From a virus: 27,059 nt of DNA. Position 1 is the stretch's first letter. Every line of letters starts with the position of its first letter. Position numbers and translations under genes: made by a program. This document shows, in pieces, positions 105 to 25,857 of this stretch. Location of the stretch: IMG/VR virus record IMGVR_UViG_3300035698_019948, positions 1-27,059 of that record. One strand, written 5' to 3'. Under the pieces are notes generated by a model. It searched no databases. It saw nothing but the letters and a program-made list of their open reading frames with translations, and was not told the origin of the DNA.

Positions 105-782
105 TTATTTACACTCACTGATTAGCTCCAATAACTTTTTGGAAAAACTTGTACAGGCGGCAGACTCGGCGGCAAACTCGGCGGCAGACTTGGCGGCAGA
201 CTCGGCGGCAAACTCGGCGGCAGACCTGGCAGACCAGGCGGCAGACTTGGCGGCAGACTCGGCGGCAGATCTGGCAGACCAGGCGGCAGACCTGGCCGCA
301 GACTTGGTCTGCCTGGAAGCGTCGTCTCTTTTCCAAAGTCTGACACAGCCCTCGACTGCACTCCTTTGTTCTTCAAATTCTTTACCTTGCAGCCTTTCAA
401 GGTTTGACTCCAACACAAATATTAAGAACTTCGGTTTAATCGTATCAAGATCGGCGCCAACATTGATTTTCTCAATAAATTCTAACGGCCATGTTTTCTG
501 GAGATCGGACGGGAGTCTTTCGAATATAGCGTCCTCCAAATAGGCCAGCCACTCTGGCACCCCAAAGTATTTTTCGTAAGAAGCGTGGAGGCTACTTAAT
601 ACCGATTCATCTTTTAATTCAAGTCGAACAGAATTCAAAGAGCAGCCAACGGCGCAACCCTTGAAAGTGCCATCATCGGGGTCACCATATGTGCCTGGAA
701 TAATTCTATCCTGATCTTGATGCCATTTTAGATGATGCAGTAATCTTTCTTTTGTGACTGGTGTCTCTAAAAAGGCTCTCAT
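105..782 (-). CDS. Alanine-repeat protein with conserved N-terminal domain
   Basis: 225 residues. The N-terminal 150 residues carry the motifs GCAVGCSL, FGVPEWLAYLEDAIFE, WPLEFIEKINVGADL and KPKFLIFVLE. I recall these from a family of uncharacterised bacterial and phage proteins that typically end in alanine-rich repeats. Residues from about 158 to 212 are four-residue units of the form S/F-A-A-x (x = R, W, E, K), encoded by a 12-base tandem repeat, predicted to be helical; the end is KKLLELISECK. The start codon overlaps the TGA of the upstream gene as ATGA, so translation is probably coupled. No catalytic motif seen. Role unknown. Confidence 0.8.
   Translation of the reverse strand: MRAFLETPVTKERLLHHLKWHQDQDRIIPGTYGDPDDGTFKGCAVGCSLNSVRLELKDESVLSSLHASYEKYFGVPEWLAYLEDAIFERLPSDLQKTWPLEFIEKINVGADLDTIKPKFLIFVLESNLERLQGKEFEEQRSAVEGCVRLWKRDDASRQTKSAARSAAWSARSAAESAAKSAAWSARSAAEFAAESAAKSAAEFAAESAACTSFSKKLLELISECK
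157..310. repeat. Degenerate 12-base tandem repeat inside a coding region
   Basis: About twelve units of a GGCGGCAGACTC-like sequence. One unit-phase change near the middle shortens a unit (S-A-R instead of S-A-A-R). Because the unit is a multiple of three and contains no stops, four or more frames stay open across it, which creates long spurious ORFs on both strands. Slippage would change protein length rather than switch it off. Confidence 0.9.
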
Positions 783-6299: not shown

Positions 6300-6491
6300 A
6301 TGAAAAACTATATTGAAGAGAAAAAAGCCTGCGAACTACTAGATGTTGATTCCGCTAAGTTTAGATTCTTGATAATTGAGAACGAAATCAAGGGAATTCA
6401 AATAAATGGGGAGTTTTGGATGCATAGGTCTGAGCTTGGGGATTATGCTGGTAGGCGTAAAGAAGAAATGATTTCAATTATCTCTCAATAG
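6300..6491 (+). CDS. Excisionase/MerR-like DNA-binding protein
   Basis: 63 residues. The pattern YIEEKKACELLDVDSAKFRF...INGEFWMHRSELGDYA is that of the helix-turn-helix 17 (excisionase-like) group: a short recognition unit followed by a turn with F-W and a last helix. Such proteins act as regulators or recombination directionality factors; no integrase is present in the window to decide. GGAGGTCAT precedes the ATG. The 3-prime end overlaps the convergent lipoprotein gene by 18 bases. Confidence 0.65.
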   Translation: MKNYIEEKKACELLDVDSAKFRFLIIENEIKGIQINGEFWMHRSELGDYAGRRKEEMISIISQ

Positions 6492-7130
6492 AACTTCTTC
6501 ATAGCCTATTGCGACAAGCAGATGGGTTTTGTCTTTAGTGTAAAAGACACACTGTGTTATCCTGTTAGGGGTTACATACCTAAATGTTTTATTATTCTGG
6601 GTTGTTAGTTTGAAACCCTGGCACCCTGTGCTCTTAACCTCCGTATTGAAAGAAATTAGCTGTTCTAGGCCTTCTTTGCTCTGGCACACAGTTTTGTCTA
6701 TGGATTTATAGAAACTCCCATTACACATCCCCTGTGCCTCTAATTTGAGATGTTTTAATGGGTCTCTAAAAAATACCATCGCCCAGGAGTGGCGGCCTTT
6801 ACTATTCATATGCGCAATAGTTAAAGGGCAGTTAATATCCTCCCCTACTTCTAGCCCATAAGCTGGTTTGAATTTTAGTTTCCACTTTCTACCTTGATCT
6901 TCAGTGAGCCTTTCTCTGTGGCAGTTTTTTACAATAACTACGTCACCTTTATTGGGTGATTTAGTAACAATTTCGTATTGGGCTTGATGGTCTAGGACTT
7001 GGATTCCGTAGGCTTTTCGTCCGTTGATTTCGGTGAAGAGGTTTCTTTTATAGAAGGTTTCGGAATTGAGGTTCTTCCTTGGGACGGAGGAGCAGGAGAG
7101 GATGAATGTGAATAATATTGCTTTAACCAT
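6474..7130 (-). CDS. Lipoprotein, possible outer spanin-like protein
   Basis: 218 residues. The N-terminus MVKAILFTFILSC fits a lipoprotein signal with C13 as the lipidated residue. Beyond it are six further cysteines, an even number that suits disulphide bonds in the periplasm. The gene begins inside the preceding small membrane-protein gene in another frame (139-base overlap), the layout of Rz/Rz1-type spanins. At 218 residues it is long for an outer spanin, so it may have another envelope role. No ribosome site precedes ATG; a 12-pair hairpin ends 11 bases upstream. Confidence 0.65.
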   Translation of the reverse strand: MVKAILFTFILSCSSVPRKNLNSETFYKRNLFTEINGRKAYGIQVLDHQAQYEIVTKSPNKGDVVIVKNCHRERLTEDQGRKWKLKFKPAYGLEVGEDINCPLTIAHMNSKGRHSWAMVFFRDPLKHLKLEAQGMCNGSFYKSIDKTVCQSKEGLEQLISFNTEVKSTGCQGFKLTTQNNKTFRYVTPNRITQCVFYTKDKTHLLVAIGYEEVLLRDN

Positions 7131-7403: not shown

Positions 7404-7760
7404 TTATCTCCTAACTTGAAAATGAAAATGGGCACCATGCCCGCTGTCATGGTATTTCACTAATCGCTTTTTGTGATCGGTATTAGAAATTGCTGCAATG
7501 TTTTTATATTTGCAATTAAAATGCACAAGTAATTCTCCAATATCCTCTTCACCCCAGCCTTTTATTGACGCATCAAATGCACGCCCGTCACGATGGGTGG
7601 AACTAATTCTCCCCTCAACCTCTTCTTTCAAGGAAGTTATTAGACAAGGCATGTCGTTTTCTTTACACCAGTCAAAAAATTCTATTAAGACCATAAGAAT
7701 CATGGGCTTCATTCTATGGAGGTCGGTTATGTCTAATTCTGATTTAAATTCTATTTTCAT
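7404..7760 (-). CDS. M15-type peptidase, probable endolysin
   Basis: 118 residues from MKIEFKSELD, starting in the ATGA overlap with the upstream gene. A longer frame to 7823 exists but would lie inside that gene. Zinc-site pattern of the M15 (D-Ala-D-Ala/L-Ala-D-Glu) family: S-S-T-H56-R-D-G-R-A-F-D63 and the late H-G-A-H111-F-H113. These enzymes cut peptides of the cell wall. No signal peptide, so export would need a holin. It is short, consistent with a compact single-domain endolysin. Confidence 0.85.
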   Translation of the reverse strand: MKIEFKSELDITDLHRMKPMILMVLIEFFDWCKENDMPCLITSLKEEVEGRISSTHRDGRAFDASIKGWGEEDIGELLVHFNCKYKNIAAISNTDHKKRLVKYHDSGHGAHFHFQVRR

Positions 7761-7978
7761 AATTTTAATGCTTTTAAAAGAGCTACCGCTATTATTGGGA
7801 CCATACCAGCAACAGCGCCCCATACCCCCGCTTTTATTTTTAGTGAATTTATTTCTATCCTTGCGTCAAACATATTTGTGTTCATTTCTTTTAGCTCCGA
7901 TCTTATGGAGTCAAGGTCTGACCTAAGCAACTTAAGTTCGTGGACTATTAAATCAATATTGTGTTCTCTATCCGACAT
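7757..7978 (-). CDS. C-terminally anchored coiled-coil protein, holin candidate
   Basis: 73 residues. An N-terminal coiled coil (IVHELKLLRSDLDSIRSELKEM and on) is followed by one C-terminal membrane helix (AGVWGAVAGMVPIIAVALL). Small proteins of this form often lie beside phage endolysins and are frequently annotated as holins or lysis proteins. It is coupled to the M15 gene by ATGA and overlaps the receiver-domain gene upstream by 11 bases. Confidence 0.65.
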   Translation of the reverse strand: MSDREHNIDLIVHELKLLRSDLDSIRSELKEMNTNMFDARIEINSLKIKAGVWGAVAGMVPIIAVALLKALKL

Positions 7979-8330: not shown

Positions 8331-8699
8331 TTACTTGTATTCGGTAATATAAACGGTTGCGGAAGCGCCAGCATCAATCACTCGGATATATCTTGCGGTA
8401 TCTTTGACAAAATATAACGTCTCAGGCTTCAGAAAAGCACCACCGTTAAGCAGTTTACCAGCAGCAACGGTAGCGGCTCCGATGCTTTGGTCACCCATAA
8501 TTATAAAAACATCAGCGCTTGTGGCTATTGAGAACACTTTGCTTTCTATAAACTTGTTAGTTTTAGCGGCCAATGGGTCTGCACTTGTAGACGTTGATGT
8601 TGTGAATTGAGTGTTAACCGCCCCCGCTAGCGTGAAAAGGTTTTGGGCGGACTCACCTGTCTTGAGGTTAACTGTACTAATACTATATTCTAAACTCAT
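8331..8699 (-). CDS. Small structural-type protein
   Basis: 122 residues, Ala/Ser/Thr-rich with short beta segments (VFSIATSADVFIIMGD, TLYFVKDTARYIRVIDAGASATVYITEY), the look of a small virion protein. AGGAG lies 5 bases before ATG. It falls between the ejection-protein block and the lysis genes. No specific family recognised. Confidence 0.7.
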   Translation of the reverse strand: MSLEYSISTVNLKTGESAQNLFTLAGAVNTQFTTSTSTSADPLAAKTNKFIESKVFSIATSADVFIIMGDQSIGAATVAAGKLLNGGAFLKPETLYFVKDTARYIRVIDAGASATVYITEYK

Positions 8700-12827: not shown

Positions 12828-13153
12828 TATATCTCCTTAATAAAAGTAATTACATTTGCTTCAGCAGCGTGAAACTTGAAACCAAACCCCAATATATTAG
12901 TGGCGCTTCTTTCGGCACCATTCGAATACAAGTCCACATTGGAACTCATAGTTTTGCATCCTTCTTTAAGGGCAATCTCAGTGAGTTGGTTCGCAAGTTT
13001 ATATCCTAGTTTCTTTCCCCTAAAGTCGGGGTGGATGAAGTAGTCAGATACAAAACAATTCTCTCCATCTATACGATAACGTATGAAGCCCCAATCTTCA
13101 GCAATCTCACTCATTCCAAGCCTTTCTGAATGGTATAGCTGGTAAAGGTTCAA
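12827..13153 (-). CDS. GNAT-family N-acetyltransferase
   Basis: 108 residues. The acetyl-CoA motif A is seen in VSDYFIHPDFRGKKLGYKLA, with R-G-K-K-L-G as the phosphate-binding loop, then LTEIALKEGC and a C-terminal NILGFGFKF (motif B). Start is TTG, supported by AAGGGG upstream and by overlap with the previous stop. GNATs move an acetyl group to amines on small molecules or proteins. Its place among virion genes is also known in other phages; a virion or host-protein target is possible. Confidence 0.8.
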   Translation of the reverse strand: MNLYQLYHSERLGMSEIAEDWGFIRYRIDGENCFVSDYFIHPDFRGKKLGYKLANQLTEIALKEGCKTMSSNVDLYSNGAERSATNILGFGFKFHAAEANVITFIKEI

Positions 13154-13518
13154 TTAATCCCCTTCAATATTGTGCAAAAGTTGAGCAGGTCCCCGACATA
13201 TCTAGTGCAATCAAGCTTTTTTAGAAGCCTCTTGGCCTCTTCCTTCTTATCTCTTTTGATTTTCTTATCTCTAATAGATTTATTGATACGATCTTCAAAT
13301 TTCTTTTTCTTCTCGGTATTTATAAAAGCTGACCCATCTTTGATATCGTAGTATTCAGGGTTGTGGTCGCCTGGAACCGCTATACAGTTCTTATGTTTAG
13401 TTAGGCAGTGGTGCTTTCTAAGAAACAACTCCCTCCCAATAGACGAGACCTCATTTATTCCAATAAACGCTGAATTAGCATTGGTAATCATCAATAAAAT
13501 GACTAGGGATTTGGTCAT
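13150..13518 (-). CDS. Small exported protein with four cysteines
   Basis: 122 residues. MTKSLVILLMITNANSA is a Sec signal peptide with likely cleavage after A17. The mature part has C-x6-C (HHCLTKHKNC) and a second pair near the C-terminus (LDCTRYVGDLLNFC), with a very basic helix between (KKKKFEDRINKSIRDKKIKR). Four cysteines suit two disulphides in the periplasm. It is coupled by ATGA to the exported fibre-like gene before it. Function unknown. Confidence 0.75.
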   Translation of the reverse strand: MTKSLVILLMITNANSAFIGINEVSSIGRELFLRKHHCLTKHKNCIAVPGDHNPEYYDIKDGSAFINTEKKKKFEDRINKSIRDKKIKRDKKEEAKRLLKKLDCTRYVGDLLNFCTILKGIN

Positions 13519-14417
13519 TGTCTAACGCCTGCACAGCTAATATTAAGACCAGCAGCACTGGAAGACCCCGCCTGGTTTGACCTAAAAGTTGCTCCCGATA
13601 CCGTGAGGGAAGTTATCTGGCAGTGTTCATCGTTTACGTTTTCTTCGACGGTACACTGGCATGTAGGTTCTTTGCCTCCAAATATTCCTGTTTCAAATGT
13701 TAATACAGCAGTTACCGTCCCAGAGATTGAAGCAACCCATTGGCCACACGCGGCCTCAGCGTCAAGCTCAAAGCTAACTGTTGCACCAGTTACAGACACC
13801 CGACAATCGAATCTACTTCTACTACTATCAAACCCTATCTGGTCCCATTGTCTAACGTCGTCCTTAAGATCACTTGAGCTGTCGTTATAGACCTTAGCGA
13901 GTGCCCTATTATCAGAGTTGTCGTAACCGTCAGCATTAGGCTCTGTAGTCGAAATCAACAAATCAAGAGTTGCAGAAGCTGATCCGTCTTTCGCGTAAAC
14001 ATAATATAGTGTATCCGAAGACTCACTTGAGCAATCGGTACAACCCCAGGTAACAGTCGTCTTTGTCGCTGTTTCTATTAGGTTACCGTTAACACCCAGT
14101 CTACAAATATCAACAGAAATAGTGTTAGTGTCATCAAAAGCAACCTTGCACCCATCTCTCAACCCATTATTTAAAGCTCCAAAAGAAGCTGATAGCTTAG
14201 CAGGAGTAACCGCACCGTCTGCCAACTTCGCTTCATCAATCGAGCCGTCAACAATACAGTCACCAGGCAAATTATTGGCCCTAGTGTAGACCGTATTCAA
14301 ATCGGTATTGTACTTAGCTGAAGTCAATACAGAGTTGGCACCGTTATTAGTTCTAGAAATTGTCGTGTCACAGACTGCAAAAACAAGTGAAGGTAAAAAC
14401 AATAAGATCCATTTCAT
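13515..14417 (-). CDS. Exported Cys-rich fibre-like protein
   Basis: 300 residues. MKWILLFLPSLVFA is a typical signal peptide, with cleavage likely before V15-C16. The next part (TDLNTVYTRANNLPGDC...GSIDEAKLADGAVTPAKLSA) is the register of phage fibre or tail-structure proteins. The rest is beta-rich. There are 12 cysteines, including C-T-D-C and C-Q-C, far more than in the other structural proteins here. It lies directly after the nozzle gene. Export plus disulphides suggest that it folds in the periplasm, either to join the virion late or to work on the envelope. Confidence 0.75.
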   Translation of the reverse strand: MKWILLFLPSLVFAVCDTTISRTNNGANSVLTSAKYNTDLNTVYTRANNLPGDCIVDGSIDEAKLADGAVTPAKLSASFGALNNGLRDGCKVAFDDTNTISVDICRLGVNGNLIETATKTTVTWGCTDCSSESSDTLYYVYAKDGSASATLDLLISTTEPNADGYDNSDNRALAKVYNDSSSDLKDDVRQWDQIGFDSSRSRFDCRVSVTGATVSFELDAEAACGQWVASISGTVTAVLTFETGIFGGKEPTCQCTVEENVNDEHCQITSLTVSGATFRSNQAGSSSAAGLNISCAGVRQ

Positions 14418-14426
14418 AAGTATTCC

Positions 14427-16325
14427 CTAATTAAGATTTCTATTTCCGTTTTTATTGTAGTGAACTTGTGCATTTACCAAGTTCATATTTCCATCGATTG
14501 TCGATTGATAAAATCCAATTAATATGTTTTCACCAGTTAGGTTAATGTCATTCCTTGCCGTAACAATTGAGCGGTCATCACTAAAAACCCCTTCATCAAG
14601 CCTGGAAACATCCAGTATAAACCCAGTGGTAGGAGTGGGGAAAGAATAGCTATAAGTGTTAACAACAGTCTGGTCATAATTAAGAAATGTTTTGACCTCT
14701 ATATCTCCACCCGCAATCGCTCTTACAATAACTTCCCTGAAAGAATAGGTAGCATCAAAATCTTGAGTACCACCAAACCAAGGCATTAAAGTAAATGCTT
14801 CTACGGCGACCGGATTGTTATCGGCATCGATATCGTTTCGATCTTCCGCAATTGAATGCTTGTGGATAAACCCGTTAGCATCTGAGAAAAGGACAACTTC
14901 ATCACCAGATGTCATATCTTCAGCTACCGTGGCAAATGTTCCCGGTATTGCAAATTCATAGGGCTTGAATGTTCCGTTATTAAACTCCCAACAATAGACC
15001 TTAGAAAGAGCGTTGTTAGCCCCCTCAGAAACCCAGGTCATATACATATCTAATTGAGAGTAATAAACACCAAAGAAGTTACTGAAGTTAGCTTTGTTCA
15101 ATTCAAAAACAAAACCCTCAGCACTGAAGATATCATCGATGTCACCTTCACCAATTGTGGCTGGCCGATCGGTTGATCCAACCAATCTCCCGTTAAACAC
15201 CGCTCTCCACCCTGACTTACTTAAGAAGTAAACAGATCCGTCTCTTATAGAGACCGTATCCTGGCTAACACATCCAACACGATCGTTGATCATTACGAAT
15301 TTAGCCTGACCACCGACTTCTGAATAAATATGAGTTGAACTTTCCTTGAACACTACAAGGTAGGGGTCTAATACCCCGTCATTGAAAAATCCAGTGGCAA
15401 GACCAGTAATAGGCCCATCACCCTCAGCTACTAATAATAGCCTGGTTTCTGTATCATCAAACGCATCTGGTAGATCGGTCTCACTGAAGTAAACGTCACT
15501 GGGGTTATTTGAATTCCCAGCATAAACCAATCTTCTATTAAATGTAGTCAAATACTTAGCGCCACCCGCAGTAGGAGGGGCATTAACAGTAGGAGGTGTT
15601 TGAGTAGAGGTTGATTCTGCCGTAATAGTAGTCGTGGCATCCCCTATGGCTATTTCTTCAATAAATAAGAAGTTCCCAGCATTGGTGACATCCTTGAGAT
15701 ATACACGCTTTTTATCAATAAAACCGTTGTCGGCCACAACCGGCATAGAGGAAACATCAATTTGATTTGTCCCAGAAACGGTAACAGTAGAAGAGGTTCT
15801 AACGTTTGATTCAAACCCTGTAACTGTAGAATAAAAAGTGATCCCAACTGCCCAATCACCTGTTGCAATCGTAGCCCCTGACCCAGAGACACCAGCGGTA
15901 AAGGCACCAGGTATCGCCTGACCTAGCTGAGAGAAGGTTGTCCCATCCCATTGGAATAGTCCATCACTCTCTATCGCCATAATATGTCGATTATTAAAAG
16001 TGACTGCTCTATGTTTATTGGCTTGAGTTAATCCGTTCTTAACAGTCGCATGTGTGCTGGTTGTGCTGACGGACTTAAGGTCTGACCCAACCTTGGCCAA
16101 TACATTGGTAGAACCATCATTCTCACCAAAATAGCTAATTGATTGGATTGACCCACCTAAAGAGATGGCGTTGTATCTAGAGAAACCATGTCGGGTCTCG
16201 AGTTTCCCCTGATTAAAGAACATATTACGAACGTCTTTAAACTTATCATCTTCTTCATCTGCTCGATAAGATAAGGGAAGGTTAAATCTTTTAACTGTTT
16301 GAACTGCTCTTCTATTTAAAGGCAT
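14427..16325 (-). CDS. Tail nozzle / tail tubular B-type protein
   Basis: 632 residues. The start (LPLSYRADEEDDKFKDVRNMFFNQGKLETRHGFSRYN) is characteristic of the tube or nozzle proteins of short-tailed phages, which list donut-like beta-propeller repeats. Mid-protein motifs include LTTFNRRLVYAGN, DVYFSETDLPDAF and DGSVYFLSKSGWRAVFNG. Residues ~157-246 form an Ig-like insert that matches one in the adaptor. It extends the tail below the adaptor and gives the fibre platform. It follows the adaptor gene with one base between them. Confidence 0.8.
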   Translation of the reverse strand: MPLNRRAVQTVKRFNLPLSYRADEEDDKFKDVRNMFFNQGKLETRHGFSRYNAISLGGSIQSISYFGENDGSTNVLAKVGSDLKSVSTTSTHATVKNGLTQANKHRAVTFNNRHIMAIESDGLFQWDGTTFSQLGQAIPGAFTAGVSGSGATIATGDWAVGITFYSTVTGFESNVRTSSTVTVSGTNQIDVSSMPVVADNGFIDKKRVYLKDVTNAGNFLFIEEIAIGDATTTITAESTSTQTPPTVNAPPTAGGAKYLTTFNRRLVYAGNSNNPSDVYFSETDLPDAFDDTETRLLLVAEGDGPITGLATGFFNDGVLDPYLVVFKESSTHIYSEVGGQAKFVMINDRVGCVSQDTVSIRDGSVYFLSKSGWRAVFNGRLVGSTDRPATIGEGDIDDIFSAEGFVFELNKANFSNFFGVYYSQLDMYMTWVSEGANNALSKVYCWEFNNGTFKPYEFAIPGTFATVAEDMTSGDEVVLFSDANGFIHKHSIAEDRNDIDADNNPVAVEAFTLMPWFGGTQDFDATYSFREVIVRAIAGGDIEVKTFLNYDQTVVNTYSYSFPTPTTGFILDVSRLDEGVFSDDRSIVTARNDINLTGENILIGFYQSTIDGNMNLVNAQVHYNKNGNRNLN

Positions 16326-17315
16326 TTAGACCCCCGAATTAGCAAAGCCGTCGGCATCACCCACAACATCTCTGACGTTTGTGTAATTACGATAAACCCC
16401 AGCAAGGTCTCTAATGGCCCTTGATAAAAGCTCTTCATAATTAAGCCGCTTACTTTCTTGCCCTGACCGATCTCTATACTCATAACCCATAGCTATAACT
16501 CCGGCCTTTAGGTTTTGCTTGAGTTCTACTGGCAAAATAGGCTGGCTATCAACATCAGCAAATAGGCTTGGAGGTCTTAGTTGGAAATAGTAACTAAGAG
16601 TCACAGTGGCGCTTGGCTTAGGATAAAAGACCATTTCTGAACTAGATATTGGGGACCACAGAGAAGGTGTCCCGGTAGAAAACGCCCCTTGGAACTCTAA
16701 TCTCAATTGGTCCAATGACATAAACTGAAGTTGAGAACTTGATTCGATGTAAGGATTACCAACGTATTTTCTTACACCGCTATAATCAGGTGGCTCTATT
16801 GTACTGGTCACATCTGCTGTGATCGAAACAGTAGTATCCGTATTGTTACTGATGGTAGAGGAGAAAAGGATATCCCCTCCGTCTTTCTGCAAGTAAACCT
16901 TTCTACTGGTTACTAACGGTTCAGCGGAAACTGGAATTGAACTAACATCTATAGTTAAGGTCGCCCCTGTAGGGGTAGCACTAGCACTCTCCGTGCCGGC
17001 TACCGTCTCAAGCCCATTAGACTCAACGAAAGTTATATAAACCTTGTAAACCGAATTATCAATCAGAGATCCCCCTGATGCTAACGCGACTGACGACGCT
17101 CCGGGTGCAGCTGTTATAACACTTTGTTGCTCTGACCCGGCGGCAAGTACCTTCTGCGCCTTTCTTTGCAAGAAATTCCAATCGTGTCTATTTGCTATGT
17201 CAGATTGAATATCATTCAACCAACCTAGTACTCGACCCTTAAAAGTGGCAGTGTTATCCCCTAAAAGAGCTGATAGCTCATTCTGAAGATCTAACCCATT
17301 CCAGCTACGAGACAT
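16326..17315 (-). CDS. Head-tail adaptor / tail tubular A-type protein
   Basis: 329 residues. N-terminal helices (KGRVLGWLNDIQSDIANRHDWNFL) and a later part (SLDQLRLEFQGAFSTGTPSLW, SSEMVFYPKPSATVTLSYYFQLRPP, then KAGVIAMGYEYRDRSGQ) match the adaptor type that joins the portal to the tail nozzle. Between them, residues ~90-177, is an Ig-like module that also occurs in the nozzle protein. The gene is between the small structural protein and the nozzle gene, as expected. Confidence 0.8.
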   Translation of the reverse strand: MSRSWNGLDLQNELSALLGDNTATFKGRVLGWLNDIQSDIANRHDWNFLQRKAQKVLAAGSEQQSVITAAPGASSVALASGGSLIDNSVYKVYITFVESNGLETVAGTESASATPTGATLTIDVSSIPVSAEPLVTSRKVYLQKDGGDILFSSTISNNTDTTVSITADVTSTIEPPDYSGVRKYVGNPYIESSSQLQFMSLDQLRLEFQGAFSTGTPSLWSPISSSEMVFYPKPSATVTLSYYFQLRPPSLFADVDSQPILPVELKQNLKAGVIAMGYEYRDRSGQESKRLNYEELLSRAIRDLAGVYRNYTNVRDVVGDADGFANSGV

Positions 17316-17560
17316 TAAACACCAGCGACGTAGAGAGTACCCGTATCACTTGCAGTAACACTAGAAACCGTAACAGAACCAACCGTTCTAACAGCTAAAC
17401 CAGCGGCTTCAGTCACTTCATTGTTGAATGAAAGGTGATATATCTGGCTTAAACCAGTCTCAACCGTTCCAGTTGTTACTGAATCGAAGTCCATTTCATA
17501 GACTTTGTACTTGATGGCACCTAGTTGACCCTGACTTGAAATACTACTTGAAAACGCCAT
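17315..17560 (-). CDS. Small structural protein upstream of the adaptor
   Basis: 81 residues. Beta-rich (AIKYKVYEMDFDSV, YHLSFNNEVTEAAGLAVRTVG, TASDTGTLYVAGV). I have seen this size and pattern of small proteins among phage head-completion genes. It overlaps the O-antigen ligase-like gene end by 17 bases and the adaptor start by one. No clear family. Confidence 0.7.
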   Translation of the reverse strand: MAFSSSISSQGQLGAIKYKVYEMDFDSVTTGTVETGLSQIYHLSFNNEVTEAAGLAVRTVGSVTVSSVTASDTGTLYVAGV

Positions 17561-18602
17561 TATAATCCTCCCTGGACATTGAATAAGCTAAGATTCCTAT
17601 TAAAGCTGTGGTCGCAACGTGAAAAGTTAAGTTTCCAAAACTGTTAACTACAACCCCAAAAAACATTGCGTTTAGGATAACGCTTTTTGCTCTTAAAACA
17701 TTTGATACCAACTTTAGTACGAAGGCAATACCAATAAGGCCAAAGGCAACATACACTTCTAGAAATTCATTATGGGCATGGTGGAACCAAGCCTCATGTT
17801 TATGATACCTACTGAAAACTTCGGAGAAGTAACCGAGACCCTTCCCAAAGATAATGTCCCAACCGTTAAGCCAGGTAACCGTCTCCATCCAAATAACATC
17901 CCTATTAGTTGAACTGAGTAAATGGTCAGGCGGAAGTTCACTTAGAGAGGAAGCTGCTATCAAGGTGAACATTCCAATTAAAAATGACCCATAAGTATTA
18001 AATCTACCTATCCTGGGGATCATTAAGTACGCCCATAACACCGCCCCACACGTCAATATGGACATCGCCGACTGAGTGATAGCTACACCTATCAAAAACA
18101 ATAGACAGACATGCCACTTCCTAAAATAAATGGCAGCAGGCAAACAAAGTGCCAGATGAGCGCCACTAAGAGTCTGCTGACCCAAGCTCCCAGCAATAGG
18201 CCATGCGCCTGACCCACTTCTCTTAAAGTCCCCAAATAGATTGAGGATGAAGTTATAGGGTTCAATGTTGATATAGTTTAAAAATATCCATAAAGACTGA
18301 ACGATCCCACCGACCATTAACCCTTTGAAGATAATCTTATGGTCAATCCCCTTTAGCTGCTGAACCAGAAGAAAACCCAATATGAGGCAGAACCACTGAA
18401 ACAACATTGTCCCAGATGCATAGTTGAACTGGTTCAAACCAGCAAAGATAAGAAAGTACAGACATGGCACTAAATGCTTCCTATCCACAGCGGGCTTTCT
18501 GAAGAGAACCAATGAGATTGAAGCGAACATAATGAAGGCTACGTTCTGAGCTATTCGAACATCAAAGATTTTTTGGATTCGGAAAAAGAAGGGAAGGGTC
18601 AT
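17544..18602 (-). CDS. O-antigen ligase/polymerase-like membrane protein
   Basis: 352 residues from MTLPFFF; I chose this ATG because GGGAGGGG lies 5 bases upstream (a TTG at 18617 is the longer alternative). About ten hydrophobic segments. A large loop contains STNRDVIWMETVTWL, GKGLGYF and HHAHNEFLEVYVAFGLIG, which are the key motifs of the Wzy_C (O-antigen ligase) fold: an Arg, G-x-G-L-G and H-x-H-N-x-F-L. Such proteins join or polymerise O-antigen on the periplasmic face of the inner membrane. In a phage this can change surface receptors and block superinfection; its place between decoration-like and structural genes is unusual. Confidence 0.8.
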   Translation of the reverse strand: MTLPFFFRIQKIFDVRIAQNVAFIMFASISLVLFRKPAVDRKHLVPCLYFLIFAGLNQFNYASGTMLFQWFCLILGFLLVQQLKGIDHKIIFKGLMVGGIVQSLWIFLNYINIEPYNFILNLFGDFKRSGSGAWPIAGSLGQQTLSGAHLALCLPAAIYFRKWHVCLLFLIGVAITQSAMSILTCGAVLWAYLMIPRIGRFNTYGSFLIGMFTLIAASSLSELPPDHLLSSTNRDVIWMETVTWLNGWDIIFGKGLGYFSEVFSRYHKHEAWFHHAHNEFLEVYVAFGLIGIAFVLKLVSNVLRAKSVILNAMFFGVVVNSFGNLTFHVATTALIGILAYSMSREDYNGVFK

Positions 18603-18630
18603 TAAGACCCCTCCCAATAGTAGCTAAGCA

Positions 18631-19125
18631 TTAAAGCAAGCGTACAAATATTTCTAAAGATTCAGTAGCAGAACTAGCATCAAGTGCAGTTCCAACGGCA
18701 TGGTCTGAAGCGGCAGGAGAAGTTATTCCTGTTACTTTTCCACCAAGAGCGTCGGCACTCAAATAAACAACACTACCAGCAACGGCGTTATCACCGAAAC
18801 CAGAGTGTAGTCCACTGACCTTGCCGTAAACACGACAACGACCAAAACTACCAGCGGCTTGAGCTTTCACAGCAAAACAAGCAGCGGGATCACCAAGAGC
18901 AGCTGACTCAGAGTCTGAGCTGTCTACAGTGGCACCGTCGTCAGCAGTTAGATCCCAGACTTGCAGGGAACCAGCTAGCGCAACAGCGGTAAACTTAACA
19001 CGAATATCAATCGTGTCTTTTTTAGTGACTGTGCCATTTACATCAAAGGCATTAGAACCAGCACCAGTGATGATCGCCATTGCTACCAAAGGTAGAACAG
19101 CGATTAAAACAATTAACTTTCTCAT
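18631..19125 (-). CDS. Exported decoration-like protein
   Basis: 164 residues. MRKLIVLIAVLPLVAMA is a Sec signal peptide with cleavage near A17. The mature part is Ala/Gly/Ser-rich beta (GDNAVAGSVVYLSADALGGKVTG and SPAASDHAVGTALDAS), like small head-decoration or capsid-stabilising proteins, and has exactly two cysteines (AACFAV...GRCRVYG). It immediately follows the major capsid gene, the usual place for a decoration protein. A signal peptide on such a protein is odd, because capsids assemble in the cytoplasm. It may bind the virion after lysis or have an envelope role. Confidence 0.75.
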   Translation of the reverse strand: MRKLIVLIAVLPLVAMAIITGAGSNAFDVNGTVTKKDTIDIRVKFTAVALAGSLQVWDLTADDGATVDSSDSESAALGDPAACFAVKAQAAGSFGRCRVYGKVSGLHSGFGDNAVAGSVVYLSADALGGKVTGITSPAASDHAVGTALDASSATESLEIFVRLL

Positions 19126-19136
19126 GCAATTACTCC

Positions 19137-20075
19137 TTATGCAGAAACTTCGATATCAGCAAGTTCGCCTTGAAATCGTCTGTTGTTAGAAATTAAGTTA
19201 CCCATCCAGAAGATTCTCATCAACATACTGTTAGATGTCTCAAGTTTCTCGATAGTGTCCTTACGCATGTTCTCATCTTTGTGAACGGCCAAGTACAAGT
19301 ACTCTTCGTTTAAGAAGTACACGCTGTTAGCTTTACAGTGCGAGTCGACCAACATTGGCGTCGAGTTAAAGGTCAAAACATTTGAAAATCCTAATCCAGC
19401 CATTTCTTCAGACATAAGTCTTTGATGTGGTTGGAACAAGCTCCAAGCTTGGTCATAAACGTCTTGTTTTGAAACAATTACTGTTGGCTTGTCATCATCT
19501 TCAGAAGTGGCACCAAAAGTATTTTGCATCAAGTTCAAAGTCAAAGCACGGTCTGTTCCACCGTTGGCTTTTACAATTGATGCCCAATCAGAAAAGTCAG
19601 CAACAGCAATTCCACCATAAGTAGAAGAAGTACTAACAACAGCCTCAAGGCCATCAACAGCATCAGAACCACCGGCTCCGAAAAGACCAGTAGCTAGAGT
19701 GTCTTTCATTTGCTTTTCAGCAATCTGAACTTTTGATTGAACTAAGTTCAACTTAGCAGCGTCGCCACTGTTTTGAAGAAGCTCTTTACGAGAAACACGG
19801 ATTGGCTCATAAAGTTGTCTCCAAGCATGCTTAGAGGCAGTGATGTTATCAGTACGAGAGATGTCGAGAGTAGCAAGGTCATTGAAAAACCCACCAGCAG
19901 AAGGCTGAGAGCTGATAACCGGTGCAAGTATCTCGTGTCCACCTTCGATTAATTTAAGCTTCTCTGGACGTGCAAGACGTGCAGTAAAAGCCTTACTGTT
20001 GTAAACGCCGTCAACTAGACGGGGAATGAAATGCCGCTCAGTAATAGCGGTGATTTGTGCAAATTCTAAAGCCAT
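19137..20075 (-). CDS. Major capsid protein (HK97-fold type)
   Basis: 312 residues. Start MALEFAQITAITERHFIPRL; core segments include DISRTDNITASKHAWRQLYEPIRVS (alpha/beta start), TVIVSKQDVYDQAWSLFQPHQRL and a C-terminal NVLTFNSTPMLVDSHCKAN...VYFLNEEYLYLAV, in the order seen in phage capsid proteins. It lies after the scaffold gene, and GGAGT precedes ATG. One cysteine, so no disulphide cross-link is expected. Confidence 0.8.
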   Translation of the reverse strand: MALEFAQITAITERHFIPRLVDGVYNSKAFTARLARPEKLKLIEGGHEILAPVISSQPSAGGFFNDLATLDISRTDNITASKHAWRQLYEPIRVSRKELLQNSGDAAKLNLVQSKVQIAEKQMKDTLATGLFGAGGSDAVDGLEAVVSTSSTYGGIAVADFSDWASIVKANGGTDRALTLNLMQNTFGATSEDDDKPTVIVSKQDVYDQAWSLFQPHQRLMSEEMAGLGFSNVLTFNSTPMLVDSHCKANSVYFLNEEYLYLAVHKDENMRKDTIEKLETSNSMLMRIFWMGNLISNNRRFQGELADIEVSA

Positions 20076-23966: not shown

Positions 23967-24743
23967 TTATTCAAAATAGTTATCATTGATTCTTTTCCTA
24001 TCATACATCTCTAGTTTCTCTTTTAAATTCTTGGCCTTCTTAATATCTGCAAATGGTACAAAGGCTTTCATATTGCCCGGTATTGCCTGCTTTATCGCCT
24101 GTAAAGCAATACAAGCTGAGACTACCCTATCCTTACTGTTAAGGGTCACGTCACCAGACGCCTCTACAAATAATGAGGCCATCTCCTGTAGTAGGTTTGA
24201 GTCGTTGATAGTTACTGCGTTTTCTCTCACAGCGGCGACAAACTCATCCATCATTAAACCCTTAGTCCTAGTGTTGGTCTGCCAACCTATCTTCTTAGTT
24301 GGACCTTCGCCCCGTTCTTCCTTGACTGTCCTAGTATATACATTAGTGTAACCGCGCCTTTTCATAGCAGCGGCAGTGGCATGGCCGTGATTGTTTATCT
24401 CAACTGCTATTAATGCATTATTGTAGAAGGATCCTATTTTACAAAGAAGATCACCGAAAAGATCAGGATCAATGTGACCGTGCCAACTAGCAACTTGATT
24501 GAGAGACTTATCAACGACAAATGCGCTAGAAAAATCTCCATGTTCTAAACCCTCAGCGACGTCAGCGCCAACAGCGTAAATCCTATCAGGATTAGGATTC
24601 TCGTAAACATGAAACCTCCCATCGTCCCTAGGAGTAATAACGTTCTCTCTTGGTAGTAAAGTGATAATCACACCTAGTGCATCTGTGTCGGTGCCATCTT
24701 CCATCGCTGTAAAATACACCCATATATTCCATCTTGTGCCCAA
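23967..24743 (-). CDS. Terminase large subunit, nuclease half
   Basis: The nuclease domain (RNase H-like) of the packaging motor: GADVAEGLEHGDFS with D61, V-E115-I-N-N-H, and D205 in NSKDRVVSACIA are the three acidic positions (numbered from TTG 24743). It cuts DNA at the start and end of packaging. The protein-like region begins at about residue 37 (TPRDDGRFHVYENP); residues before it overlap the micro-ORF 24628-24774. Start codon is uncertain: TTG 24743, ATG 24704, GTG 24671. The ATPase part is a separate gene, in another frame. Confidence 0.75.
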   Translation of the reverse strand: MGTRWNIWVYFTAMEDGTDTDALGVIITLLPRENVITPRDDGRFHVYENPNPDRIYAVGADVAEGLEHGDFSSAFVVDKSLNQVASWHGHIDPDLFGDLLCKIGSFYNNALIAVEINNHGHATAAAMKRRGYTNVYTRTVKEERGEGPTKKIGWQTNTRTKGLMMDEFVAAVRENAVTINDSNLLQEMASLFVEASGDVTLNSKDRVVSACIALQAIKQAIPGNMKAFVPFADIKKAKNLKEKLEMYDRKRINDNYFE

Positions 24744-24774
24744 ACAGATTACACAGCCTTTGATACCACTTCAT
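24628..24774 (-). CDS. 48-residue zinc-knuckle-like micro-protein in the terminase split
   Basis: MKWYQRLCNLFGHKMEYMGV... ends with HRHRCTRCDYHFTTKRERYYS. C32-x2-C35 with nearby H29/H31/H38 could bind zinc. ATGA overlap with the preceding micro-ORF; its 3-prime part overlaps the nuclease gene start in another frame. Composition is protein-like. It shares the frame of the upstream ATPase gene, from which it is cut off by two TAA codons. Role unknown. Confidence 0.5.
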   Translation of the reverse strand: MKWYQRLCNLFGHKMEYMGVFYSDGRWHRHRCTRCDYHFTTKRERYYS

Positions 24775-24884
24775 AAAGGGATCCCCATAGCGTCCATAAT
24801 CGCCCACATCGCATAAGCAAATGCCGTGATACCCAACAAAAGAGCAATAATCATTACCGCCTCTTTAAATTCTTTAAAATTCAT
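24771..24884 (-). CDS. 37-residue membrane micro-protein in the terminase split
   Basis: MNFKEFKEAVMIIALLLGITAFAYAMWAIMDAMGIPL: a single membrane helix with a charged N-terminus. It starts inside the last codons of the ATPase gene, with GAGAG upstream, and ends in ATGA overlap with the next micro-ORF. The overlaps at both ends suggest real translation. Role unknown. Confidence 0.5.
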   Translation of the reverse strand: MNFKEFKEAVMIIALLLGITAFAYAMWAIMDAMGIPL

Positions 24885-25857
24885 ATCTCTCAACCTTGAT
24901 AGATTTAACTCTCTCAATTAAGTCATTAATAATATCTATTGAAAAGACAGAGCGCCCACTCATAATAAAAGCTTCCTGCGGTGTGGTGGGGTACTCTTGT
25001 CTGAATTGATCCTCAGGTCTTAATAGTGCCGTGCCCATCTCGTTACTTATCTTCCATCTTCTCCAAGCTAACTGCTTGATATTTAAGCCAAACATCTCGC
25101 TCAGTTCCCTCTCATAATCATTTAGCACTAAGTCCGTATCATCCATTTGATACTCATCATTCTCATACCAAGGGAAAAAGATAGGGGTGTAATCCGATTC
25201 ACCCGCTTGTGCTGATTTCCATCTATTATAAAACTCCTCCCCATGACCTGTTATCCCATTAGCTGTGGATTCAATAATCACACTGGTGCCAGGTTTTCTG
25301 GGTACTGATTGCATAAGGGAGGTCATAACAGTGGGAGCATTTGCCCAAAATGCCATCTCTGAGACATGTAGATCAGTTATAGTCCCGGATCGACCAGCGG
25401 TTAGCTTGTTAGATGTTTCAACCGATATCGTGCTTAGTAGTCCTGACTTGGTAGCTCTTTCAACTTCATTGGGGTTAGCGAAGGCTAACTCCTTCCTGTT
25501 TGAGTACCTCTTCATGGGCTTAAGTAACTCGGGGACATAATCGTAATAGCGAGAACACATATTAAACAGGTTCCCAGCAGCATCATTATCGTGAGCTATG
25601 ATCATCGCGTTTCTATATCTATTGGTTGAGCAGGTTTGATAAGTGAGAGCAGTTGAGAAGGTAGAAATACCCAGTTGTCTTGCCTTTAGGATAATTAACC
25701 TAACAGGATTGCCGCTTCTTCTTTGTTCTTTGATTGTTTCCCATAATCGCATTTGTTGAATATTAAACACCAATGGGATTAGCTTCGAGTCCTTCGTTAG
25801 AATCTTGAGAAACTTAGAATACTGTTCAAGGTCTCTTAGCTTCTCAAGTGTATTCAT
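24874..25857 (-). CDS. Terminase large subunit, ATPase half
   Basis: 327 residues. K58-A-R-Q-L-G-I-S-T66 is the degenerate Walker A loop of terminases, HVSEMAFW the Walker B region with the catalytic Glu, and IESTANG the coupling motif. The end (PQEAFIMSGRSVFSIDIINDL...VERYEF) is where a normal terminase would continue into the nuclease domain. Instead TAA stops it. It drives DNA into the head. ATG overlaps the stop of 25857-26075 (TAATG). Confidence 0.85.
   Translation of the reverse strand: MNTLEKLRDLEQYSKFLKILTKDSKLIPLVFNIQQMRLWETIKEQRRSGNPVRLIILKARQLGISTFSTALTYQTCSTNRYRNAMIIAHDNDAAGNLFNMCSRYYDYVPELLKPMKRYSNRKELAFANPNEVERATKSGLLSTISVETSNKLTAGRSGTITDLHVSEMAFWANAPTVMTSLMQSVPRKPGTSVIIESTANGITGHGEEFYNRWKSAQAGESDYTPIFFPWYENDEYQMDDTDLVLNDYERELSEMFGLNIKQLAWRRWKISNEMGTALLRPEDQFRQEYPTTPQEAFIMSGRSVFSIDIINDLIERVKSIKVERYEF

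Follow-up and report, generated by a model that had tools for sequence, protein, structure and literature searches.

In the textbook account, the virions of tailed phages are assembled in the cytoplasm. Virion proteins that carry signal peptides and are exported before assembly are familiar from the filamentous phages, whose pIII and pVIII are made in this way, pIII being disulphide-bonded; those virions are assembled at the membrane and extruded. The virus record analysed here, IMGVR_UViG_3300035698_019948 (27,059 bases, called the window over its full length), is a fragment of an Mx8/SU10-type podovirus-like phage, whose lineage by contrast has an icosahedral tailed virion and lysis. Two of its late virion genes, which code for a capsid cement (decoration) protein and a tail fibre, begin with predicted Sec signal peptides and continue into mature parts with even numbers of cysteines. 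The reading favoured here, and considered fairly probable, is that virion assembly is divided between two compartments: exported, disulphide-folded cement and fibre would join the particles at lysis, and a neighbouring membrane enzyme would probably modify the cement. In the open-licence literature no precedent was found for virion proteins of tailed phages that carry signal peptides, or for periplasmic virion glycosylation.

By capsid protein, the closest cultured phages are Myxococcus phage Mx8, BUCT555 and ppBjS10J-1 (27-32%). Mx8 and its relatives have a similar order of the major capsid protein (MCP) gene and its successor to that of the window, and in both a GNAT protein is encoded after the tail genes. 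However, their post-MCP genes have no signal peptide, no Wzy_C gene is annotated, and there is no exported fibre after the nozzle. The cement resembles Phage_cement_2 (PF09956) and its structural kin (the base of the phi29 head fibre gp8.5, TW1, T1, Pam3, HFTV1 and phiCD508) in predicted fold, post-MCP position, size and likely expression level; it differs in its Sec signal peptide and paired cysteines, both absent from the Mx8 cement, and in its dedicated membrane-enzyme neighbour. The fibre is similar to Tail Collar/Mtd-type fibres in that its gene follows the nozzle and a conserved N-terminal domain precedes a variable C-terminal one, but in the window lineage it has a signal peptide and a cysteine-paired N-terminal domain. 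For the enzyme the comparison is with TfpO/PilO, TfpM and PglS, which are often encoded close to a single exported substrate (PMC12645811). The window likewise has a Wzy_C membrane enzyme beside one exported protein, and no PglL_A or Wzy_C_2 domain was detected in it, as in TfpO and TfpM (PMC12645811). The substrate would, however, be a phage cement and not a pilin, the window cement has no Ser/Thr end, and the activity is putative.

The features on which the argument turns are these:

18631-19125, minus strand: capsid cement (decoration) protein of 164 residues, predicted to be Sec-exported, after the MCP gene; signal peptide MRKLIVLIAVLPLVAMA at 19075-19125; mature cysteines Cys83 and Cys97.
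18591-18615, minus strand: intrinsic-terminator-like hairpin, GGGAGGGGTC-TTAAT-GACCCTTCCC then TTCTTTTT, between the cement and enzyme genes.
17544-18617, minus strand: polytopic membrane protein with a Wzy_C (O-antigen ligase / O-oligosaccharyltransferase-type) domain (E 3.9e-7).
13515-14417, minus strand: tail fibre of 300 residues, predicted to be Sec-exported; signal peptide MKWILLFLPSLVFA at 14376-14417; 12 mature cysteines.
13150-13518, minus strand: small protein of 122 residues, predicted to be exported, with a signal peptide and 4 mature cysteines; its gene overlaps the fibre gene by 4 nucleotides.

Protein families, signal peptides, cysteine pairing, conservation, the terminator and gene linkage were all computed. 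Signal peptides were called by rule, as a basic n-region, a hydrophobic core and a small-x-small cleavage site. Among the 38 called open reading frames (ORFs) of the window the rule selects the cement, the fibre, the 13150-13518 gene and a lipoprotein-like gene of the lysis region (6474-7130), and no others. By this rule the signals are of type I Sec form, with a real translation start, a basic start, a hydrophobic core and an AxA-type site. Read by hand, cleavage falls between MRKLIVLIAVLPLVAMA and IIT in the cement, between MKWILLFLPSLVFA and VCD in the fibre and between MTKSLVILLMITNANSA and FIG in the third protein. The mature parts then contain 2, 12 (cut after VFA) and 4 cysteines, respectively; the window MCP contains one and the nozzle, of 632 residues, two.

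Relatives were gathered in two sets. The first, from searches with the MCP, the cement and the fibre N-terminus, holds 16 distinct contigs with a cement gene (window included) and 15 with a fibre gene. The second came from nozzle and portal profile searches, with no selection on the cement or fibre genes, which were then recognized by profiles stripped of the signal peptide. A signal peptide is present on the cement in 16/16 members of the first set and 13/13 intact members of the second (29/29), and on the fibre in 15/15 and 14/14 (29/29); the fibre of contig L056 was judged by eye, its core not being preceded by any basic residue. By the same rule, 31 of the 311 other ORFs of at least 80 residues in these contigs are positive. 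Signal-peptide occurrence in cement and fibre thus exceeds chance, with the qualification that the contigs are related and the counts are therefore not independent draws. Mean identity among the fibres is 28% in the signal peptide as against 63% in the adjoining domain; since the letters diverge while the neighbouring domain is conserved, it is the property that is kept and not the sequence. A Shine-Dalgarno-like motif stands upstream of the signal-peptide start codon in 15 of the 16 cement genes and 12 of the 15 fibre genes.

The cysteine counts are similarly constrained. In the first set the mature cements contain 2, 2, 2, 2, 2, 2, 4, 4, 8, 4, 4, 4, 2, 4, 6 and 2 cysteines, all even and non-zero, and over both sets the number is even in 29/29 (range 2-8). 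The L102 cement, which looks truncated (149 residues, 3 cysteines) but retains its signal peptide, was excluded from these counts. Even counts are found in 13/15 fibres of the first set and 13/14 of the second (26/29). The number and positions of the cysteines vary widely among contigs while parity is kept, and the MCP, nozzle, adaptor and portal of the same contigs have many odd counts and no even bias. Judged from sequence, this conservation strongly supports the view that both proteins would be exported and would form disulphides. A preliminary description of the window, made from its letters without database searches, had reported three genes with clear signal peptides and 4, 12 and 2 mature cysteines, against one in the MCP and two in the nozzle. 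The three ORFs lie where it placed them, on the minus strand, its signal-peptide calls and counts are reproduced, and the conservation that it proposed to look for in relatives is present.

The identification of gene 18631-19125 as a capsid cement protein is well supported. Phage_cement_2 matches 5 of the 16 homologues (best 3.2e-5). An AlphaFold2 model of the mature window protein as a monomer (pLDDT 79, pTM 0.76) has as its leading PDB fold matches phage capsid decoration proteins throughout (E 2.7e-4 to 1e-2, prob 1.00), the named ones being the structural kin given above, and its matches in BFVD are mostly phage proteins. PDB sequence searches with the cement and enzyme profiles gave chance matches or none. 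Profile comparison joins the cement to the equivalently placed gene of distant relatives and Mx8 (prob 94.8, E 4.9e-8); the Mx8 gene is annotated 'major virion structural protein' and encodes neither a signal peptide nor a cysteine. The location of the gene directly after the MCP gene is also that of known capsid cements. Cys83 and Cys97 (mature residues 66 and 80) are found on adjacent strands of the model (66-68 and 77-90), and this predicted placement fits a cross-strand disulphide.

The hairpin behind the cement gene bears on its expression. A strict scan finds a terminator after 24 of the 29 cement genes, compared with 4 of 580 shuffles and none of 26 adaptor or nozzle gene ends, and the folding z-scores at all 29 cement ends are negative (-2.1 to -5.9 relative to mononucleotide shuffles). 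Where the cement is present a terminator lies between it and the MCP gene in 5 of 27 contigs; of the 4 contigs that lack it, 3 have a terminator after the MCP gene. Most simply, this is read as a stoichiometry terminator that closes the series of high-copy capsid genes, and its position behind the cement, or behind the MCP where the cement is missing, suggests capsid-level expression. Such placement supports the cement as a virion component over a low-level envelope factor. In most contigs the Wzy_C gene begins within the hairpin, so that the enzyme would be made in lower amount. In the window (18591-18617) the hairpin loop contains an in-frame ATG at 18602, a possible Wzy_C start, and the stem contains a Shine-Dalgarno-like GGGAGGGG; enzyme translation may therefore also be limited.

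Gene 13515-14417 is also well supported as a tail fibre. Its homologues combine a conserved N-terminal domain with a variable C-terminus, as expected of a tail fibre; in L010 and L046 the same N-terminal domain, signal peptide included, is followed by a Phage Tail Collar domain (2.1e-24), and weak matches to the second domain of Mtd occur in four members. In L049 a second signal-peptide gene of fibre-like sequence lies right behind the fibre. The product of 13150-13518 has weak homologues (E about 1e-4), likewise with a signal peptide and four cysteines, at the same place in L060 and L061. For this cysteine-paired protein no role in the virion came to light; it may assist the fibre or serve as an exclusion factor. 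The preliminary description had taken the gene after the MCP for a decoration protein, to be compared with decoration folds, and the gene after the nozzle for a fibre, and both identifications are borne out. Its hypothesis that the exported parts fold with disulphides in the periplasm and then either join virions or modify the envelope is partly supported: joining is the probable reading for these two, and no such role was found for 13150-13518.

The enzyme that accompanies the cement, like the terminator, was no part of that description. The window protein scores 30.4 bits against Wzy_C, just below the cut-off of 31.7, whereas all 16 members scanned match the Pfam family (best 1.1e-11). R239, H282 and H333 are invariant among the homologues, and the AlphaFold2 model is mostly helical, in keeping with a polytopic membrane protein that has a Wzy_C domain. 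NCBIfam added nothing useful, and PglL_A and Wzy_C_2 are absent from the Pfam hits of all 16 members. The gene is present with an intact cement in 29/29 contigs, a place beside an exported protein like that of the dedicated O-oligosaccharyltransferases; it is immediately downstream except in L086 and L091, where one small gene intervenes. Both genes are missing from L008, L010, L046 and L094. The MCP tree puts these four in a single clade, together with L009, which is not counted among them; the joint absence, which had looked like four cases of linkage evidence, was downgraded to a single event. None of the 16 aligned cements has a C-terminal Ser/Thr (the window cement ends ...RLL); since TfpO and TfpM use such a residue, membership of their classes is not claimed. 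The window cement has a loop rich in Ser, Ala and Pro (SPAASD), similar to sites described for PglL; the loop is not conserved in the other cements and was not used. By analogy with the dedicated O-oligosaccharyltransferases that act on neighbouring pilins, the enzyme probably modifies the exported cement, its putative substrate, from the periplasmic face. Since the fibre keeps its export signal in contigs that lack the enzyme, export has some further reason, most likely disulphide folding.

The contigs with exported cement and the one cement-less subclade group together on the MCP tree, apart from the relatives with cytosolic cement (100/100), and the signal peptide is absent from the cement of L011-L014 and Mx8. 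The exported, cysteine-paired cement is therefore most likely a derived state. Homologues without the N-terminal segment and the cysteines, which the preliminary description had regarded as telling against its hypothesis, do not occur inside the lineage; outside it they are found, in the Mx8-type relatives only.

In the favoured two-compartment assembly, the capsid, portal, adaptor and nozzle would assemble in the cytoplasm. Cement and fibre would be made with cleavable Sec signal peptides, cross the inner membrane into the periplasm of a diderm host and be cut there, to be oxidized and folded with disulphide bonds, and the Wzy_C enzyme would possibly glycosylate the cement. Both proteins would wait in the periplasm until the holin opens the inner membrane, and on mixing of the compartments during lysis they would bind to the DNA-filled particles. 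A fuller version can be put forward only tentatively: the oxidized cement and fibres would be decorated with the host's lipid-linked glycan by the phage Wzy_C oligosaccharyltransferase before binding at the opening of the inner membrane, and the virion would leave coated in host sugar. Several points weigh against the favoured reading. Three fibres have odd cysteine counts, two in the subclade without cement and enzyme and that of L080. The window's own cement has no Pfam match, so that its identity leans on homologues and fold. The tree reduces the joint absence of cement and enzyme to a single event, and their linkage is thus not independently repeated; the fold search with the enzyme model gave no confident PDB match, with SEDS RodA-PBP2 among the top but at prob 0.47. 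Cement and fibre are putative virion parts of this lineage, read as such from sequence and predicted fold, and the diderm host is likewise a prediction. No nucleotide match to the window was found among 50,697 phage records. No isolate protein matching the cement, the fibre or the Wzy_C protein was found in the phage collection searched, and a host search of genome contigs with the MCP and the fibre N-terminus gave no confirmed relative.

The strongest competitor accepts export but confines its purpose to disulphide folding, the Wzy_C protein being an unrelated neighbour (a polysaccharide polymerase or ligase). It is a real possibility, if the less probable one. The subclade without cement and Wzy_C still exports its fibre, which makes export independent of the enzyme; cement and enzyme are not direct neighbours in L086 and L091, where another gene lies between them, and the joint loss of the pair is a single event. 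Yet the pair is kept in 29 distinct contigs with widely diverged capsid proteins, and TfpO, TfpM and PglS are themselves encoded close to a single exported substrate (PMC12645811). It is unlikely that the exported proteins serve to modify the envelope. In that case the fibre and cement relatives would not be virion parts and would work at the cell surface or within the periplasm, masking receptors or excluding other phages, and Wzy_C would alter the host O-antigen (serotype conversion). Signal peptides are normal for exclusion proteins, and one paper describes prophage-driven lysogenic conversion of capsular polysaccharide involving Wzy (PMC13228068); among the genes considered here, 13150-13518 would suit such a role best. 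The genes lie, however, inside a tightly packed late virion block, the cement is on the capsid side of the conserved terminator and has the fold of a capsid decoration, and the fibre, with its highly conserved N-terminus and a variable C-terminus that can be Tail Collar, has the form of a virion-anchored fibre.

Least probable of all is that the hydrophobic N-terminal segments are uncleaved virion anchors or assembly segments, binding for example the inner membrane or the capsid, on proteins that remain cytoplasmic. Such segments can have other uses, and cleavage here is predicted. This explanation nevertheless has to account for signal peptides whose three-part form is conserved and whose AxA-type site immediately precedes the mature domain, for the even cysteine counts, and for a segment whose sequence diverges while its signal-peptide properties persist. 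If two-compartment assembly is correct, the periplasm can supply late parts to the virion while the cell is lysing, and the origin of disulphide-stabilized, perhaps glycosylated, virion surfaces would be explained. Late virion genes whose products combine a signal peptide with an even number of cysteines form a signature by which the same strategy can be searched for elsewhere.

On the minus strand the gene order is portal, scaffold-like gene, MCP, cement, Wzy_C gene, small protein, adaptor, nozzle, fibre, 13150-13518, GNAT protein and internal proteins, and from the MCP onward the genes are separated by at most 13 nucleotides or overlap. The remaining features are:

19137-20075, minus strand: MCP, SU10/Mx8-like (phrog_9953, 6.8e-53; 32% identity to the Mx8 MCP).
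17315-17560, minus strand: small virion-block protein of 81 residues; signal peptide only in the homologues of L007 and L049, not in the window.
16326-17315, minus strand: head-tail adaptor (SU10_adaptor, 2.6e-15).
14427-16325, minus strand: nozzle-like virion protein of 632 residues (phrog_3287, virion structural protein, 3.7e-10; conserved at 44-53%).
7757-7978, minus strand: small membrane protein with one C-terminal transmembrane segment, a holin-like candidate (phrog_1103, a family of unknown function, 7e-5; weak hemolysin match, phrog_1193, 0.099).
7404-7823, minus strand: endolysin-like peptidase without a signal peptide (phrog_894 endolysin, 0.044, weak), with an HxxGxAxD...HxH pattern.

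Signal peptides also come and go on other virion-block genes. In the virion-block protein of about 90 residues they occur only in L007:8383-8709 and L049:6628-7005, that of L049 being fused directly before the family's usual MAFS-type start. A homologue of window 8331-8699 has one in L005:19488-19898, and there is none in the window or in L062:14844-15215. Such gain and loss suggests that export is tolerated or useful for virion-block proteins generally in this lineage. Downstream of the virion block there are further large signal-peptide proteins, L046:16295-18133 (612 residues, 20 cysteines), L060:14940-16376 (478 residues) and L010:19871-20935 (at least 355 residues), for which Pfam gave nothing better than E 0.008; they are possibly additional exported tail parts.

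In the lysis region, 7757-7978 overlaps the endolysin-like gene and has a holin-like topology, from which it is read as a putative holin. An endolysin-like gene without a signal peptide and an overlapping holin-like gene, both weak assignments, are consistent with holin-triggered lysis. The lipoprotein-like gene 6474-7130 (MVKAILFTFILSC followed by SS) lies beside these lysis genes and has 7 cysteines and no family match. It is a candidate outer spanin and as such would point to a host with two membranes.

Elsewhere in the window the large terminase seems to be divided between two ORFs (23967-24743 and 24874-25857, minus strand), one of them ATPase-like and the other nuclease-like. The stretch between them (24744-24873) encodes short ORFs, of which one is transmembrane-like and another has a CxxC motif. 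Rfam gave no intron match at 24300-25100; the gene may be truly split, or interrupted by an insertion or by an intron that escaped detection. Finally, low-complexity, repeat-rich coding is seen as SAA-rich repeats at window 105-782 and as GSGHGYGSG-type repeats in two adjacent ORFs at L005:8-560, and these regions are possibly fast-evolving.

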